The position numbers and the translations under genes are program-made. Below the pieces are notes generated by a model. The model was not told the DNA's origin and did no database searches. It was given only the letters and a program-made list of their open reading frames with translations. Positions 20,270 to 34,439 of a stretch of 41,678 nt of DNA are shown here, piece by piece; the stretch's first letter is position 1; each line of letters starts with the position of its first letter. Source of the stretch: Candidatus Methanoflorens crillii (GTDB lineage: Archaea > Halobacteriota > Bog-38 > Methanoflorentales > Methanoflorentaceae); contig PMMR01000051.1 in the NCBI GenBank assembly GCA_003162175.1, forward strand, positions 1-41,678. The letters run 5' to 3'.

Positions 20270-20434
20270 GAGGCCACGAATCGCGAATGCGGATCCGGCC
20301 TCCGATCTACGACGCAAAGGCTGCTCGGCCAGCTAACGCAACTTATAAATAGTCAAGAATTGCTCATTTGAGTGGTTTTCAGGCGAAGGTCGGCAGGCGG
20401 AAGTTTGCACCACGACACAGTGAGTCGTGAGCTT

Positions 20435-21094
20435 ATGCGGCAACAAGGGATTCTTGCGGTTTTGATTGTTGCGATAATGCTGTCTTCGTGTGGTTGTTTA
20501 GGGGGTGGGCAGAGCAATGATACTAACACGGCACCTCTCGCCAACTCTTTACTAGTCGTCAGATCGGTTGAGGTAATGGTGGGCTACAACACCTCGCTTT
20601 CCTGCGTGTTGAACATAACGAACGGGCAGGGCCTTGACAATCAGGTCGTTTACTGGTATCTCGACGGCCAGCCTCTTGGGCAAAGCTCCACCTACTTTGG
20701 TTTTGCAACGTACAACCTGTCTGTCAGCGACGTCTCGGGACTTGCGCTGGGAGAACACCAAATTCTCGCAGAATACAAAGGCAACGCCGATTATGCGGGC
20801 TCACAAGCGGAAGGCGTGTTGCTCGTTATCGCGGCACCAACGCCAACACCAACCCCAACGCCAAGACCAACCGCAACGCCACGACCAACAGCAACACCAA
20901 CCCCAACGCCAAGACCAACCGCAACGCCACGACCAACCGCAACACCAACCCCAACGCCAAGACCAACCGCAACACCAACCCCACAACCATCGTCGTCGCC
21001 AGCCCGGACGCTCAGACCTACACCAAGTCCGTCACAAACACCCACAGCAAGTTCTTCGCCGACCCCGTCGAGGCGAACGCGATCGGTTACCTAA
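20435..21094 (+). CDS. Lipoprotein with Ig-like domain and Pro-Thr-rich stalk
   Basis: A 219-residue protein. A hydrophobic signal ([17 protein letters not shown]) with a lipobox-like Cys leads into an exported domain of about 95 residues with the pattern of a bacterial/archaeal Ig-like repeat ([50 protein letters not shown]). After it come about 45 residues of TPTPRPTA-type repeats and a Ser/Pro/Thr-rich tail with no wall anchor. In-frame starts before ATG 20435 precede the signal and are unlikely. A cell-surface display or adhesion role is plausible. The TATA-like ACTTATAAATAG at about 20340-20351 is the likely promoter. Confidence 0.7.
20848..20985 (+). repeat. 48-bp tandem repeat encoding a Pro-Thr stalk
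   Basis: The unit starts ACCAACCCCAACGCC and repeats at 20848, 20896 and 20944 (third copy partial); copies differ at about one base. Each unit is itself built of 6-bp steps and encodes 16 residues of alternating Thr-Pro, Arg-Pro and Ala. Copy number probably varies between strains by slippage. Confidence 0.85.
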
Positions 21095-29198: not shown

Positions 29199-30962
29199 TT
29201 AGTACTCGTCGAGGTATTTTTGCTCGCGACGTGAGTCCGGTTTGCGTGTGTTGTCATGCTTGTCCACGCGTTGCTCACCGTCGCGCTTAACGTGCACTTG
29301 CGCTGGTGAATCACCCTGATCTTCAGATGGAGAACGAGGCGCGTCGAAACTAACCGGCACCTTGTGCTCTGAAATCGGGTGACGTACGGGCGTCTTTTCA
29401 CTGCTTAATCGTTGTGCTTTTTGTAACGCGGTTTTTACCGCTGAAGCATCCTTTTTGACGTTCATCAGGAACGCAAGCTCGTCAGCAGTGAGAATCAGTG
29501 CTGCCGCTATACCTGCCGGGTCTCTCTCTGTCAGCGCTTTGTAGAGTGGAATAGCGTCTTGCCGCGCTTTGCTCACTGAGATGTGGTTTGCGGTGCCGAT
29601 TTTAGTTGCCACCGCGTCTCTTAAAGCGCGTTTAGACCGTGTCTGCCCGAGGCGCATCCAATTCGTCGGGGGGGAATATTTGCCCGCGGCATGGCGTCGT
29701 CCCCGGTTTTGGCGGCTCACGACGTTTATTCCCGAGGTCATCAGTTCGGCGGCGTATCTCCATAGGCCGTAGTTTTGTCTCTTTCGCGTTCGTCCGAGGT
29801 AAACATCAGCTCTACGCAGTACCTGAAATGCGCGCGCGAGGGCGCCATCTTTCAAAGAACGCGGCAGGTTTTCGTCTACCCAGTGGATAAGATCTTCAGG
29901 CGTCTCATCGACCCCGTACGAGATAATAAGGGGCTTGATTGCGTCGGGGTCGCTAAAAATGCTTCTCATTAGGTCAAATGGGGTGTGGGCGCGATCGCGA
30001 GATGCGGTTTCCATCTGCGTCCCTCCGAAGTATGCTTGAAAGTCGGTTATCGCCGACCTCAGATCTCCTCTCGCGTTCTTCACGATCTGTTGAATGGAGA
30101 CCATGTCGACGGCACTCAGCGATCGGTCAATGTCCGTGAGCGTCTCCCCTAGCGTCTCTAGCTCGAGTTCCGAATCTGTGAGAACGGCTAGATCGGCGCT
30201 GATCGCCTCCAGGTCTGCCGCATCTCGTGAAGCCCGCTCAGGCTGCTCGAGCCGGGTCATCAAGTCAGCAACGGCTTCCTGAGCTTCGTAAATCGTTGGC
30301 TTATCGAGGTCAAAGCCGAGTTGTGTGAGAATCTCAAGATCGGCGCTGATCGCCTCCAGGTCTGCCGCATCTCGTGAAGCCCGCTCAGGCTGCTCGAGCC
30401 GGGTCATCAAGTCAGCAACGGCTTCGTGGGCGCGTAAAACATCTCTCTTCTCGTTGTGCCAGATATCCACCAGCGCCTTTTGTGCACTTTCCTCCTTGAT
30501 GGCAAAAAAAGCGACGAGTTTGCAGTGTCCGCGTAGCGTCGAGGAGACTCCGTACAGGTCGTTGGCCGTCAGAATCACCGGTTCGCGCGTTTTTTTTACG
30601 AGCTCTGTTACTGCTTTTGCCCCGCCGCGATCAGAATTGCCGTGTAGGTTGTCAATTTCGTCAAGCAGTATTAGCTTCTGAGCATTTTGAAGTGACGCGT
30701 TTCGAGACGCCGCTCCTGCCGTCACGTTAATAGCTCCTTGAGTTCGCTTGTCACTGGCATTAAGCTCGAGCACCTGCCACCCCATGTCATTAGCCAACGC
30801 GACTGCAGAGGACGTTTTGCCGATGCCGGGCTTACCGTATAACAAGGCTGCCGTTTTCTCCGCGGGCCAGTTAAGCGCCCATTTGCGGAGCTCTTCGACG
30901 GCTTTGTGGTTGCCTCTCACTTCTGAGAGAGTCCGCGGGCGGTATTTTTCAACGAGGTCCAT
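29199..30962 (-). CDS. rfcL: Replication factor C large subunit, with repeated insertion
   Basis: A 587-residue clamp-loader subunit that opens PCNA rings with RfcS. It starts MDLVEKYRPRTLSEVRGN, carries Walker A GKPGIGKTS, Walker B LILLDEID and sensor 1 VILTANDLYG. The C-terminal third is a charged tail ending in many Asp/Glu/Lys/Arg. Between KALVDIWHNEKRDV and DMVSIQQIVKNARGDLRSAI, where the lid helices normally follow each other closely, about 100 extra residues contain two copies of a 30-residue acidic helical unit (residues 180-209 and 229-258). ATG 30962 matches the family start; a TTG seven codons upstream is less likely. No PIP-box is obvious at the very C-terminus. Confidence 0.95.
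   Translation of the reverse strand: MDLVEKYRPRTLSEVRGNHKAVEELRKWALNWPAEKTAALLYGKPGIGKTSSAVALANDMGWQVLELNASDKRTQGAINVTAGAASRNASLQNAQKLILLDEIDNLHGNSDRGGAKAVTELVKKTREPVILTANDLYGVSSTLRGHCKLVAFFAIKEESAQKALVDIWHNEKRDVLRAHEAVADLMTRLEQPERASRDAADLEAISADLEILTQLGFDLDKPTIYEAQEAVADLMTRLEQPERASRDAADLEAISADLAVLTDSELELETLGETLTDIDRSLSAVDMVSIQQIVKNARGDLRSAITDFQAYFGGTQMETASRDRAHTPFDLMRSIFSDPDAIKPLIISYGVDETPEDLIHWVDENLPRSLKDGALARAFQVLRRADVYLGRTRKRQNYGLWRYAAELMTSGINVVSRQNRGRRHAAGKYSPPTNWMRLGQTRSKRALRDAVATKIGTANHISVSKARQDAIPLYKALTERDPAGIAAALILTADELAFLMNVKKDASAVKTALQKAQRLSSEKTPVRHPISEHKVPVSFDAPRSPSEDQGDSPAQVHVKRDGEQRVDKHDNTRKPDSRREQKYLDEY
30190..30425 (+). repeat. In-frame direct repeat (89 bp identical, 147-bp period) in rfcL
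   Basis: An identical 89-bp segment occurs at 30190-30278 and 30337-30425. The period of 147 bp equals 49 codons, so the frame is kept. The 58 bp between the copies are not repeated. The encoded unit starts EAVADLMTRLEQPERASRDA. Perfect identity including third codon positions means a recent duplication or gene conversion. Confidence 0.95.
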
Positions 30963-30994
30963 AGAATCAAGCGCAGAAATCAAGAGATAGGGGC

Positions 30995-32106: not shown

Positions 32107-33522
32107 CTAGTAGTTGGTGTACGTTCTGGTCCTTCCGTCGGGTCCCACAAGTTGAAGTTTGACTGGCCAACGTCCGTCAATCGTGTGGGTTGCACACGAG
32201 AAGCACGGGTCGTAAGCACGGATGACCATTTCAAGCCGATTGAGTAATCCTTCCTGTGGTTCGCCGTCCTTTATCAGGAGTTTCGCAGCCTCGCGAACCC
32301 CTAAATCCATCGCTCCTTGGTTGTGACCGGTCGAAACGATCATGTTGGCCTTCGTTATGAAGCCCTCATCGTTTGTAGTGTACTCGTGGATGAGCGTCCC
32401 TCTCGGCGCTTCGAGAACACCAACGCCAGTCGCCGCGCGTACTTCGGGCTTTGCCCAAACGTCGGTGCTGGTTATGTCTGGATCGTTTAGGAGTTCAACA
32501 GCATGTTCGCTAGCGTACATCAGCTCAATAAGCCTTGCGTAGTGATAGAGTAACGTCTGCTGTGGCATCCTCCCAAAAGCGGCTCTGAAGTCCGTGAGCA
32601 TATCGTTGGCTAGCGGTGTTGAAATCTGGTCACACACGTTTATACGGGCCAGGGGCGCAACACGATAGATGCCATCAGGCCAGCCCTTCTCCTTCCAATA
32701 CGGGAATTTCAGGTACGACCATTCTTGGTAATTCTCCTGAATGTAGTCCGCGTACTTGGTGGGGTCAAACTCCTTAATGATAGAGCCGTCTGCATCCATC
32801 ATGCGAAGCGTTCCGTCGTACATCTCGAGGTTTCCGTCCTTGACTAAGCCCATCATCGGGGTATTGACGACTCCGAGAATTTTTATGACATCCAGATACT
32901 GCTCAAATAGTGGAGCAGCCACTTCTAAACCAAGTTTTGTGAATTCAATCGAGTCCTGGGCGTCCTTGAGCATCTTCTGACGTTGCTCCTCAGTAATCCC
33001 CTTGGTGAGCCCGCCAGGCTTTGCGGTGATAGGTGCGGCTCTTCCACCAATAGCCCGTATCATCTCCTGGCCTCGTTTTCTGTTGAGGACTGCTTGTGTT
33101 GCAAGCTCAGGATTTGCTTCAATCACTCCAAAGACGTTCCGCTTCTTTGGATCGCCATCGGGCGTGAATATAAGGTCCGGCGCCGCAAGGTAGAAGAAAT
33201 GGAGCGTGTGGCTGTGTATCATCTGTCCCATGTGCATAAGCTCCCGGAGTAGCGCAGCGGGACGTGGAATCTCAACGCCAAATGTGTTGTCAGCTGCTTT
33301 CGCTGAGGCGAGGTGGTGGCTGACTGGACAGATGCCACAGATGGCCGTCACGATTCTCTGGGCGTCTTCTATAGGTCTCCCTTGTAGGAGTTTTTCAAAG
33401 CCACGCATCTCGACAACGTGTACGTGCGCATCGTCGACCTGTCCTGCATCGTTGAGATTGACAGTAACTTTTGCGTGACCCTCAACTCTCGATACAGGTT
33501 CAACTGTGATCGTCTTCCCCAT
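32107..33522 (-). CDS. mvhA: F420-non-reducing [NiFe] hydrogenase large subunit
   Basis: A 471-residue subunit carrying the Ni-Fe active site that splits H2. The four Cys ligands are visible: Cys62/Cys65 in ICGICPVSHH and Cys440/Cys443 in DPCFSCATH. A 25-residue extension follows the ATH site where maturation proteases cut. It belongs to group 3c, cytoplasmic, feeding MvhD and HdrABC. ATG 33522 is preceded by GAGGTAATACAT. It is 5 nt downstream of mvhG, so the two are one transcript. The mvhD partner is not here but in the divergent operon. Confidence 0.96.
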   Translation of the reverse strand: MGKTITVEPVSRVEGHAKVTVNLNDAGQVDDAHVHVVEMRGFEKLLQGRPIEDAQRIVTAICGICPVSHHLASAKAADNTFGVEIPRPAALLRELMHMGQMIHSHTLHFFYLAAPDLIFTPDGDPKKRNVFGVIEANPELATQAVLNRKRGQEMIRAIGGRAAPITAKPGGLTKGITEEQRQKMLKDAQDSIEFTKLGLEVAAPLFEQYLDVIKILGVVNTPMMGLVKDGNLEMYDGTLRMMDADGSIIKEFDPTKYADYIQENYQEWSYLKFPYWKEKGWPDGIYRVAPLARINVCDQISTPLANDMLTDFRAAFGRMPQQTLLYHYARLIELMYASEHAVELLNDPDITSTDVWAKPEVRAATGVGVLEAPRGTLIHEYTTNDEGFITKANMIVSTGHNQGAMDLGVREAAKLLIKDGEPQEGLLNRLEMVIRAYDPCFSCATHTIDGRWPVKLQLVGPDGRTRTYTNY

Positions 33523-33527
33523 ATGTA

Positions 33528-34439
33528 TTACCTCTTGTTTTCAGTGACCTTTGCCTTAATCATTGATACAGGCAGTGTATAGCGATAGAAGGTGCCTACT
33601 GGATCATAGACGTCCTTTACCATCTCGTCTAAGTCGACTGAGGAGTCCTCATCTAAACCGTATGCTGATGCGACCACATTGAGCATCGCCGCACCTTGTT
33701 CATACGAAGCGTCTGTTGGGCCGTAGCACCCTGTGCACGTCGCATTGACCTGCGGGCATTGCGCGCCGCATCCGCTGCGCGTCGCGGGCCCCATGCACAT
33801 AAATCCTTGGTTAAGCAGACACTCAGTGGGTGTTCCATTTGCTTCAATTGGTCTCTTTATGTCCTCTATCCTCTTCTCCTTCCTCTCTCGGGGACAGTCC
33901 TCACAAACGTTTTTATTGCTTAATTGAGGTTCTTCGCCCTTTAGAAGTGCGGTAAGAACCTCCGCGATGAGGAAAGCATCTGGCGGACATCCGGGGATGA
34001 AATAGTCAACTTTGATAACGTCCGAGACAGGTCTAAGCGTCTCAAAGAGCTTTGGCAGTTCCTTTGATGTCGGGATCTCTTGATCAGGAGCTGTGGACGT
34101 CGACGTTTTAACTGCTTGTTTGATGTCTGACATCGCGTTGATGTTGTTCAAACCTGGTACGCCACCGAACGCCGCGCAACTGCCGAGCGCAACTATGATG
34201 TCTGAGGTCTCTCGGACTTTCTGTGCGACGTGCAAGTTGTCTTCATTGCGAATGCCACCAGTCAGTATGCCGACTGTAGTGTGTTGATCAAAGTCCTTAA
34301 TGTCCATCAAAACTGGTATGCGAACAAACTCTATTGCTTGTAGTACGTCTAGAAGCGCTTCGTGCAGGTCGAGAACGGCTATCTCGCAACCAGAACAAAC
34401 GGCTAGCCAGTCCTCTTGGACCTTTACCTTATCTCCCAT
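33528..34439 (-). CDS. mvhG: F420-non-reducing hydrogenase small (electron-transfer) subunit
   Basis: A 303-residue iron-sulfur subunit. The proximal cluster site begins CSGCEIAVLDLHEALLD near residue 14. GSCAAFGGVPG and YFIPGCPPDAFLIAEVLTAL carry further ligands of the proximal cluster. CxxCPRERKEK, GFMCMGPATRSGCGAQCP and CTGCYGP ligate the medial and distal clusters. There is no twin-arginine signal, so it is cytoplasmic. ATG 34439 follows GAGGTGACTCATAA. A TATA-like TGATATATTT (minus strand, about 34498-34507) lies 60 nt upstream. First gene of mvhGA. Confidence 0.96.
   Translation of the reverse strand: MGDKVKVQEDWLAVCSGCEIAVLDLHEALLDVLQAIEFVRIPVLMDIKDFDQHTTVGILTGGIRNEDNLHVAQKVRETSDIIVALGSCAAFGGVPGLNNINAMSDIKQAVKTSTSTAPDQEIPTSKELPKLFETLRPVSDVIKVDYFIPGCPPDAFLIAEVLTALLKGEEPQLSNKNVCEDCPRERKEKRIEDIKRPIEANGTPTECLLNQGFMCMGPATRSGCGAQCPQVNATCTGCYGPTDASYEQGAAMLNVVASAYGLDEDSSVDLDEMVKDVYDPVGTFYRYTLPVSMIKAKVTENKR

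Follow-up and report, generated by a model that had tools for sequence, protein, structure and literature searches.

An insertion with two repeat copies in the lid of an archaeal replication factor C large subunit, and the concerted evolution of the copies

The large subunit of replication factor C (RfcL) encoded in the 41.7-kb window (the whole stretch of 41,678 nucleotides analysed here) is best read, with a probability of roughly 0.78, as an otherwise ordinary archaeal RfcL whose lid carries an old, two-copy and probably helical insert that has been homogenised by recombination. The insertion, its site and its restriction to one genus among the genomes searched were established by alignment and sequence searches, and the two copies were found to evolve in concert in three genomes of that genus. 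The features concerned are the following.

29199..30962, minus strand: rfcL, replication factor C large subunit (NCBIfam RfcL equivalog models; AAA domain PF00004; start common to genus relatives)
30108..30440, minus strand: genus-specific ~111-aa insertion that separates lid helix 1 (...ALVDIWHNEKRD) from lid helix 2 (DMVSIQQIVKNA...) and is absent from 25 aligned RfcL of other genera
30337..30425, minus strand: repeat copy 1, the more N-terminal of the two in the protein, with an exact core of 89 bp, EAVADLMTRLEQPERASRDAADLEAISADL
30279..30336, minus strand: tail of copy 1 and linker (EILTQLGFDLDKPTIYEAQ), with orthologues in each of the five genomes that have two copies
30190..30278, minus strand: repeat copy 2, 89-bp core identical to that of copy 1, period of 147 bp
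30108..30189, minus strand: rest of the insert (AVLTDSELELETLGETLTDIDRSLSAV), predicted helical, without significant similarity to the repeat unit

The insertion in the lid of RfcL

The rfcL product has 587 aa when counted from the ATG at 30962; the list of open reading frames gives a longer frame, from an upstream TTG at 30983, and the MDLVEKYRP start is also found in the genus relatives G002 and G003. The best RfcL model is NF003231 (431 bits, slightly below its cut-off of 442 bits), NF003229 (RfcL) scores 294 bits, over its cut-off of 280, and the RfcS model reaches 81 bits only. The RfcL models match strongly on either side of the insert, that is, in two pieces. The AAA domain (PF00004, E=1e-13) is intact, the alignments contain Walker A (GKPGIGKT), Walker B (LLDE) and sensor 1 (ILTAND), and both the lid with its GDLRSA motif and the C-terminal region are present. 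The C-terminus, QKYLDEY, is PIP-like in that it is compatible with the PCNA-interacting pattern Qxx(L)xx(aromatic), and it is kept in the genus, but it differs from the QKTLFDF end of many relatives. In Walker A and B, sensor 1, the GDLRSA lid and the C-terminal region the protein is like other archaeal RfcL (NCBIfam PRK04195 models, e.g. NF003229 and NF003231). The loop that joins the first two lid helices is usually short in these proteins, a common rather than a defining trait, and is here ~111 residues longer. This lengthening is a variation on the RfcL family, and a modest one on a well-known protein, which gives no reason to exclude the protein from it. A distinct RfcS-like gene, RfcS by its sequence, is present in the same genome as a 329-aa frame on contig 30 of the assembly.

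Within the genus, the C-terminal tail of RfcL (29199-29600) evolves much faster than the core, except for the conserved end QKYLDEY; its dN/dS is 0.13-0.64, the near-identical pair G004/G006 being excluded.

The distance between two conserved anchors on either side of the insertion is 179 residues in this RfcL, as against 68-72 in the 25 RfcL from outside the genus, so that the "about 100" extra residues of an earlier note on this DNA are real and somewhat more numerous, at ~111. The additional 110-111 residues are flanked by ...VDIWHNEKRD and DMVSIQQ...; they follow the first helix after the sensor-1/SRC part and precede the helix that leads to GDLRSA. The insert therefore belongs to the lid itself, where it separates helix 1 from helix 2, and is not at the junction of the sensor part with the lid.

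All six RfcL recovered from the genus carry the insert, five with two copies of the unit and one (G004) with a single unit, and it is missing from all 25 RfcL compared from outside. A search with the insert alone covered 136 genera of the phylum and matched these six genomes but not one of the remaining 387, in agreement with the earlier view that such an insertion is unusual for RfcL. The genus sample comprises seven genomes and is the sole genus of its class among the genomes searched; the seventh genome, G005, is 61% complete and rfcL was not found there. Genome contigs scanned by protein yielded one distant RfcL, in which the insert is absent. That the insert is homologous to a known domain, or belongs to a helical-repeat or coiled-coil family, was considered and rejected, there being no Pfam match over the cut-off, no significant relative among PDB sequences and no confident fold. 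A literature search of limited extent returned no report of an RfcL insertion of this kind.

At the 147-bp period the longest exact repeat measures 89 bp (30190-30278 against 30337-30425), a match far above chance expectation, and it extends without gaps to 108 nt at 94% identity (30177-30284 and 30324-30431). It is in frame within rfcL on the minus strand, just as first described in position, identity, period and frame. Only two families of long direct repeats occur in the window, the second being a low-complexity tract that codes for Pro and Thr. Since the repeat DNA has no further copy elsewhere in the genome assembly, a mobile or dispersed repeat was ruled out. A shuffling test gave no support (P 0.06-0.72) for a third, partial repeat in the final portion of the insert.

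Age and homogenisation of the two copies

Both copies and the linker between them (LTQLGFDLD..AQ) occur in the same order and at the same site in five genomes of the genus, among which the identity of RfcL to this protein falls to 63%. The duplication is therefore older than the sampled genus, whose ancestry was two-copy. The copies have diverged from each other to 70% DNA identity in G003 and to 44% in G002, the most distant member, in which they are still related (P=0.001).

This dating runs against the earlier proposal that one unit was copied lately in this lineage as part of a growing array. A recent duplication would account directly for 89 bp of 100% identity, but it is very improbable in view of the five genomes that share two copies and an orthologous linker, the diverged G003 and G002 among them, and of an insert that keeps a nearly constant length of 110-111 aa wherever two copies are present. 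Moreover, duplication anew from a single copy would have to rebuild the same linker every time, and G004, with its single unit, lacks the linker. A recent duplication here is thus excluded, unless the older copies were lost first and the same linker was then recreated.

The 100% identity of the copies is instead explained by recent homogenisation, because the two copies differ together from genome to genome and a vertical tree of the copies is rejected. Within the 89-bp core, the copies of a genome show no difference in the genome studied here (G000), a single one in G006 and one differing codon in G001, whereas G006 differs from G000 at about eight core positions, each of them changed in both copies. 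Among the 108 aligned positions of six copies, eight sites group the copies according to genome, and the three that group them according to copy are confined to the edges (positions 2, 105 and 107 of 108). AU tests, which drew on an alignment of 90 bases from six to eleven copies, rejected the tree in which copy 1 and copy 2 descend vertically, both for eleven copies (p=0.0009) and for the six copies of G000, G001 and G006 (p=0.005). Concerted evolution of the copies, by gene conversion or by unequal crossing-over, therefore holds for G000, G001 and G006, but not for G002. Both processes are compatible with the data, the second by way of a three-copy intermediate. The tail of copy 2 reads CTAGCCGTTCTCAC in G000 and G001 and CTTGAGATTCTCAC in G006, the latter as in copy 1 everywhere, which is consistent with a conversion tract from copy 1 in the G006 lineage.

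The copies are alike within a genome at silent sites too, with third positions such as those of GAG/GAA and GAT/GAC changing together, whereas in the rest of the gene 37 of the 172 fourfold-degenerate sites differ between G000 and G006. Consequently, although a dN/dS below 1 in the insert could be taken to favour selection on the amino-acid sequence as what keeps the copies similar without recombination, selection at the protein level alone does not explain the pattern, and we regard it as highly implausible. It is equally hard to believe that the exact second copy is a short-read misassembly, the artefact that the earlier note had named as a possible refutation: the genomes of the genus are all draft assemblies of 30-250 contigs and 89-bp repeats can trouble short-read assemblers, but five genomes, each with an assembly of its own, show the same arrangement, and in them the substitutions are specific to the genome and the edges to the copy.

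In G004, where one copy is missing, an artefact is the more plausible. This genome has one unit and its close sister G006 two, so that copy number appears to vary, as had been anticipated. The two genes are 98.8% identical outside the repeat, and exactly 147 bp are missing from G004, with the break at the repeat. The remaining unit begins like copy 1 (CGCGAG) and finishes like copy 2 (CACGGAT), a junction of the kind that recombination between the copies leaves and that short-read collapse yields as the same sequence. The one-unit state could thus mean either that a unit was truly lost or that the assembly collapsed the repeat.

Structure, constraint and possible role of the insert

A single-sequence model of the fragment that contains the insert places helices at residues 13-45, 54-70, 78-94, 103-119 and 121-140, at a mean pLDDT of 45.5. 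At this low confidence, helix 13-45 corresponds to lid helix 1 continuing into the first repeat helix, and helices 54-70, 78-94 and 103-119 alternate with loops. A full-length model (mean pLDDT 43.6) agrees for the first three helices (157-188, 199-214 and 221-237). Since both models are of low confidence, they provide a hint of secondary structure only, and not of an arm or of its direction. The in-frame unit of 49 residues is probably helical, as the earlier note had it, and probably a helix-loop-helix.

The insert is acidic (28 D/E against 9 K/R), which speaks against direct DNA binding. Its dN/dS is 0.15-0.62, compared with 0.03-0.21 for the core, where measurable and with the near-identical G004/G006 pair excluded, indicating that the insert is under purifying selection that is weaker than in the core. 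Such relaxed constraint also fits an insert that is merely tolerated.

Putting these results together, we propose that a lineage-specific, acidic and probably all-helical segment was inserted into the loop that links lid helices 1 and 2, that it came to consist mostly of two copies of the 49-residue unit through a duplication that preceded the divergence of the sampled genus members, and that the copies were later homogenised within genomes by recombination, at least in the group of G000, G001 and G006. The recombination may have acted as gene conversion, or as unequal crossing-over through one- and three-copy intermediates. As 147 bp make whole codons and the unit is predicted to be a complete helix pair, gain or loss of a unit would disturb neither the reading frame nor the chain's up-down direction, and this would account for the tolerance of such changes.

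As to its role, the insert may form a helical arm that projects from the large-subunit lid close to the gate where DNA enters, and that could serve as a spacer or as a binding or docking surface away from the ATP site. This acidic arm is suggested by analogy with known clamp loaders. In eukaryotic RFC, the large-subunit lid lies beside the A-gate and its fold changes on gate opening (PMC8893722), and in the eukaryotic clamp-unloader ATAD5 extra elements hold the lid (PMC11563871). The additions of ATAD5 are likewise lineage-specific, belong to the large subunit and contact the lid near the gate to its neighbour; they consist of a locking loop at the N-terminus and, in the collar, of a plug and an insertion of 110 residues, none of which lies between lid helices 1 and 2 (PMC11563871). 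The likeness concerns architecture and implies no relation in sequence.

A tolerated insert without a role, that is, a near-neutral lengthening of a surface loop in which recombination between the repeats is incidental, is almost as likely as an arm with a function, and we give it a little under an even chance. The dN/dS above that of the core, the identity to G002 of 42% in the insert-only search against 63% over the whole protein, and the apparent loss of a unit in G004 would all fit this possibility, but a constant length has been kept in five diverged genomes, together with the open reading frame, the helical character and a dN/dS below 1. It is unlikely, though conceivable, that the insert is a lineage-specific gate module whose number of units changes between close relatives and tunes clamp opening, DNA entry or partner binding, with recombination keeping the units identical as an equivalent pair.

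Clamp loaders are strongly conserved, and the lid insertion adjoins the moving element through which ATP binding is coupled to clamp opening; an insertion common to a whole lineage is a natural test of how far that element can change. It also provides a compact case in which two repeats within an essential archaeal gene have been homogenised, and in which a conversion tract, its direction and the apparent loss of a unit can be read. For internal protein repeats, Persi, Wolf and Koonin (2016, PMC5120217) describe, in outline, copies that first diverge at an accelerated rate and are then each conserved; the duplication is intragenic here as well, but within genomes the copies have become alike again. 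The case further cautions that a repeat identity of 100% need not imply a recent duplication.

Genomic context of rfcL

The neighbours of rfcL are truA and the gene for methanogenesis marker 2. The mcrA gene is found in this genome and in four relatives, and the organism is therefore a methanogen or a close relation of one. The kind of relatives, and a class sampled through this genus alone, would fit Candidatus Methanoflorens, a name equivalent to Bog-38 of GTDB (PMC10805028). In the genome studied here the mcrA match (G000:C10:2782-4284) spans positions 1-500 of 548 and contains one in-frame TGA, whereas the four relatives match fully; this anomaly could be a frameshift, a contig end or an assembly error.

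Hydrogenase genes adjoin at 32107-34439 of the window. In the 471-aa large subunit, residues 2-418 match the VhuA model and residues 424-449 the VhuU model, with scores below the curated cut-offs, and because both matches fall in one protein this subunit looks like an unsplit form; the gene next to it matches VhuG, also below the curated cut-off. Finally, tandem repeats of 18/30/48 bp at 20836-20983 encode a Pro/Thr-rich tract near the C-terminus of the product of ORF 20372-21094 (plus strand), a predicted secreted protein or lipoprotein.
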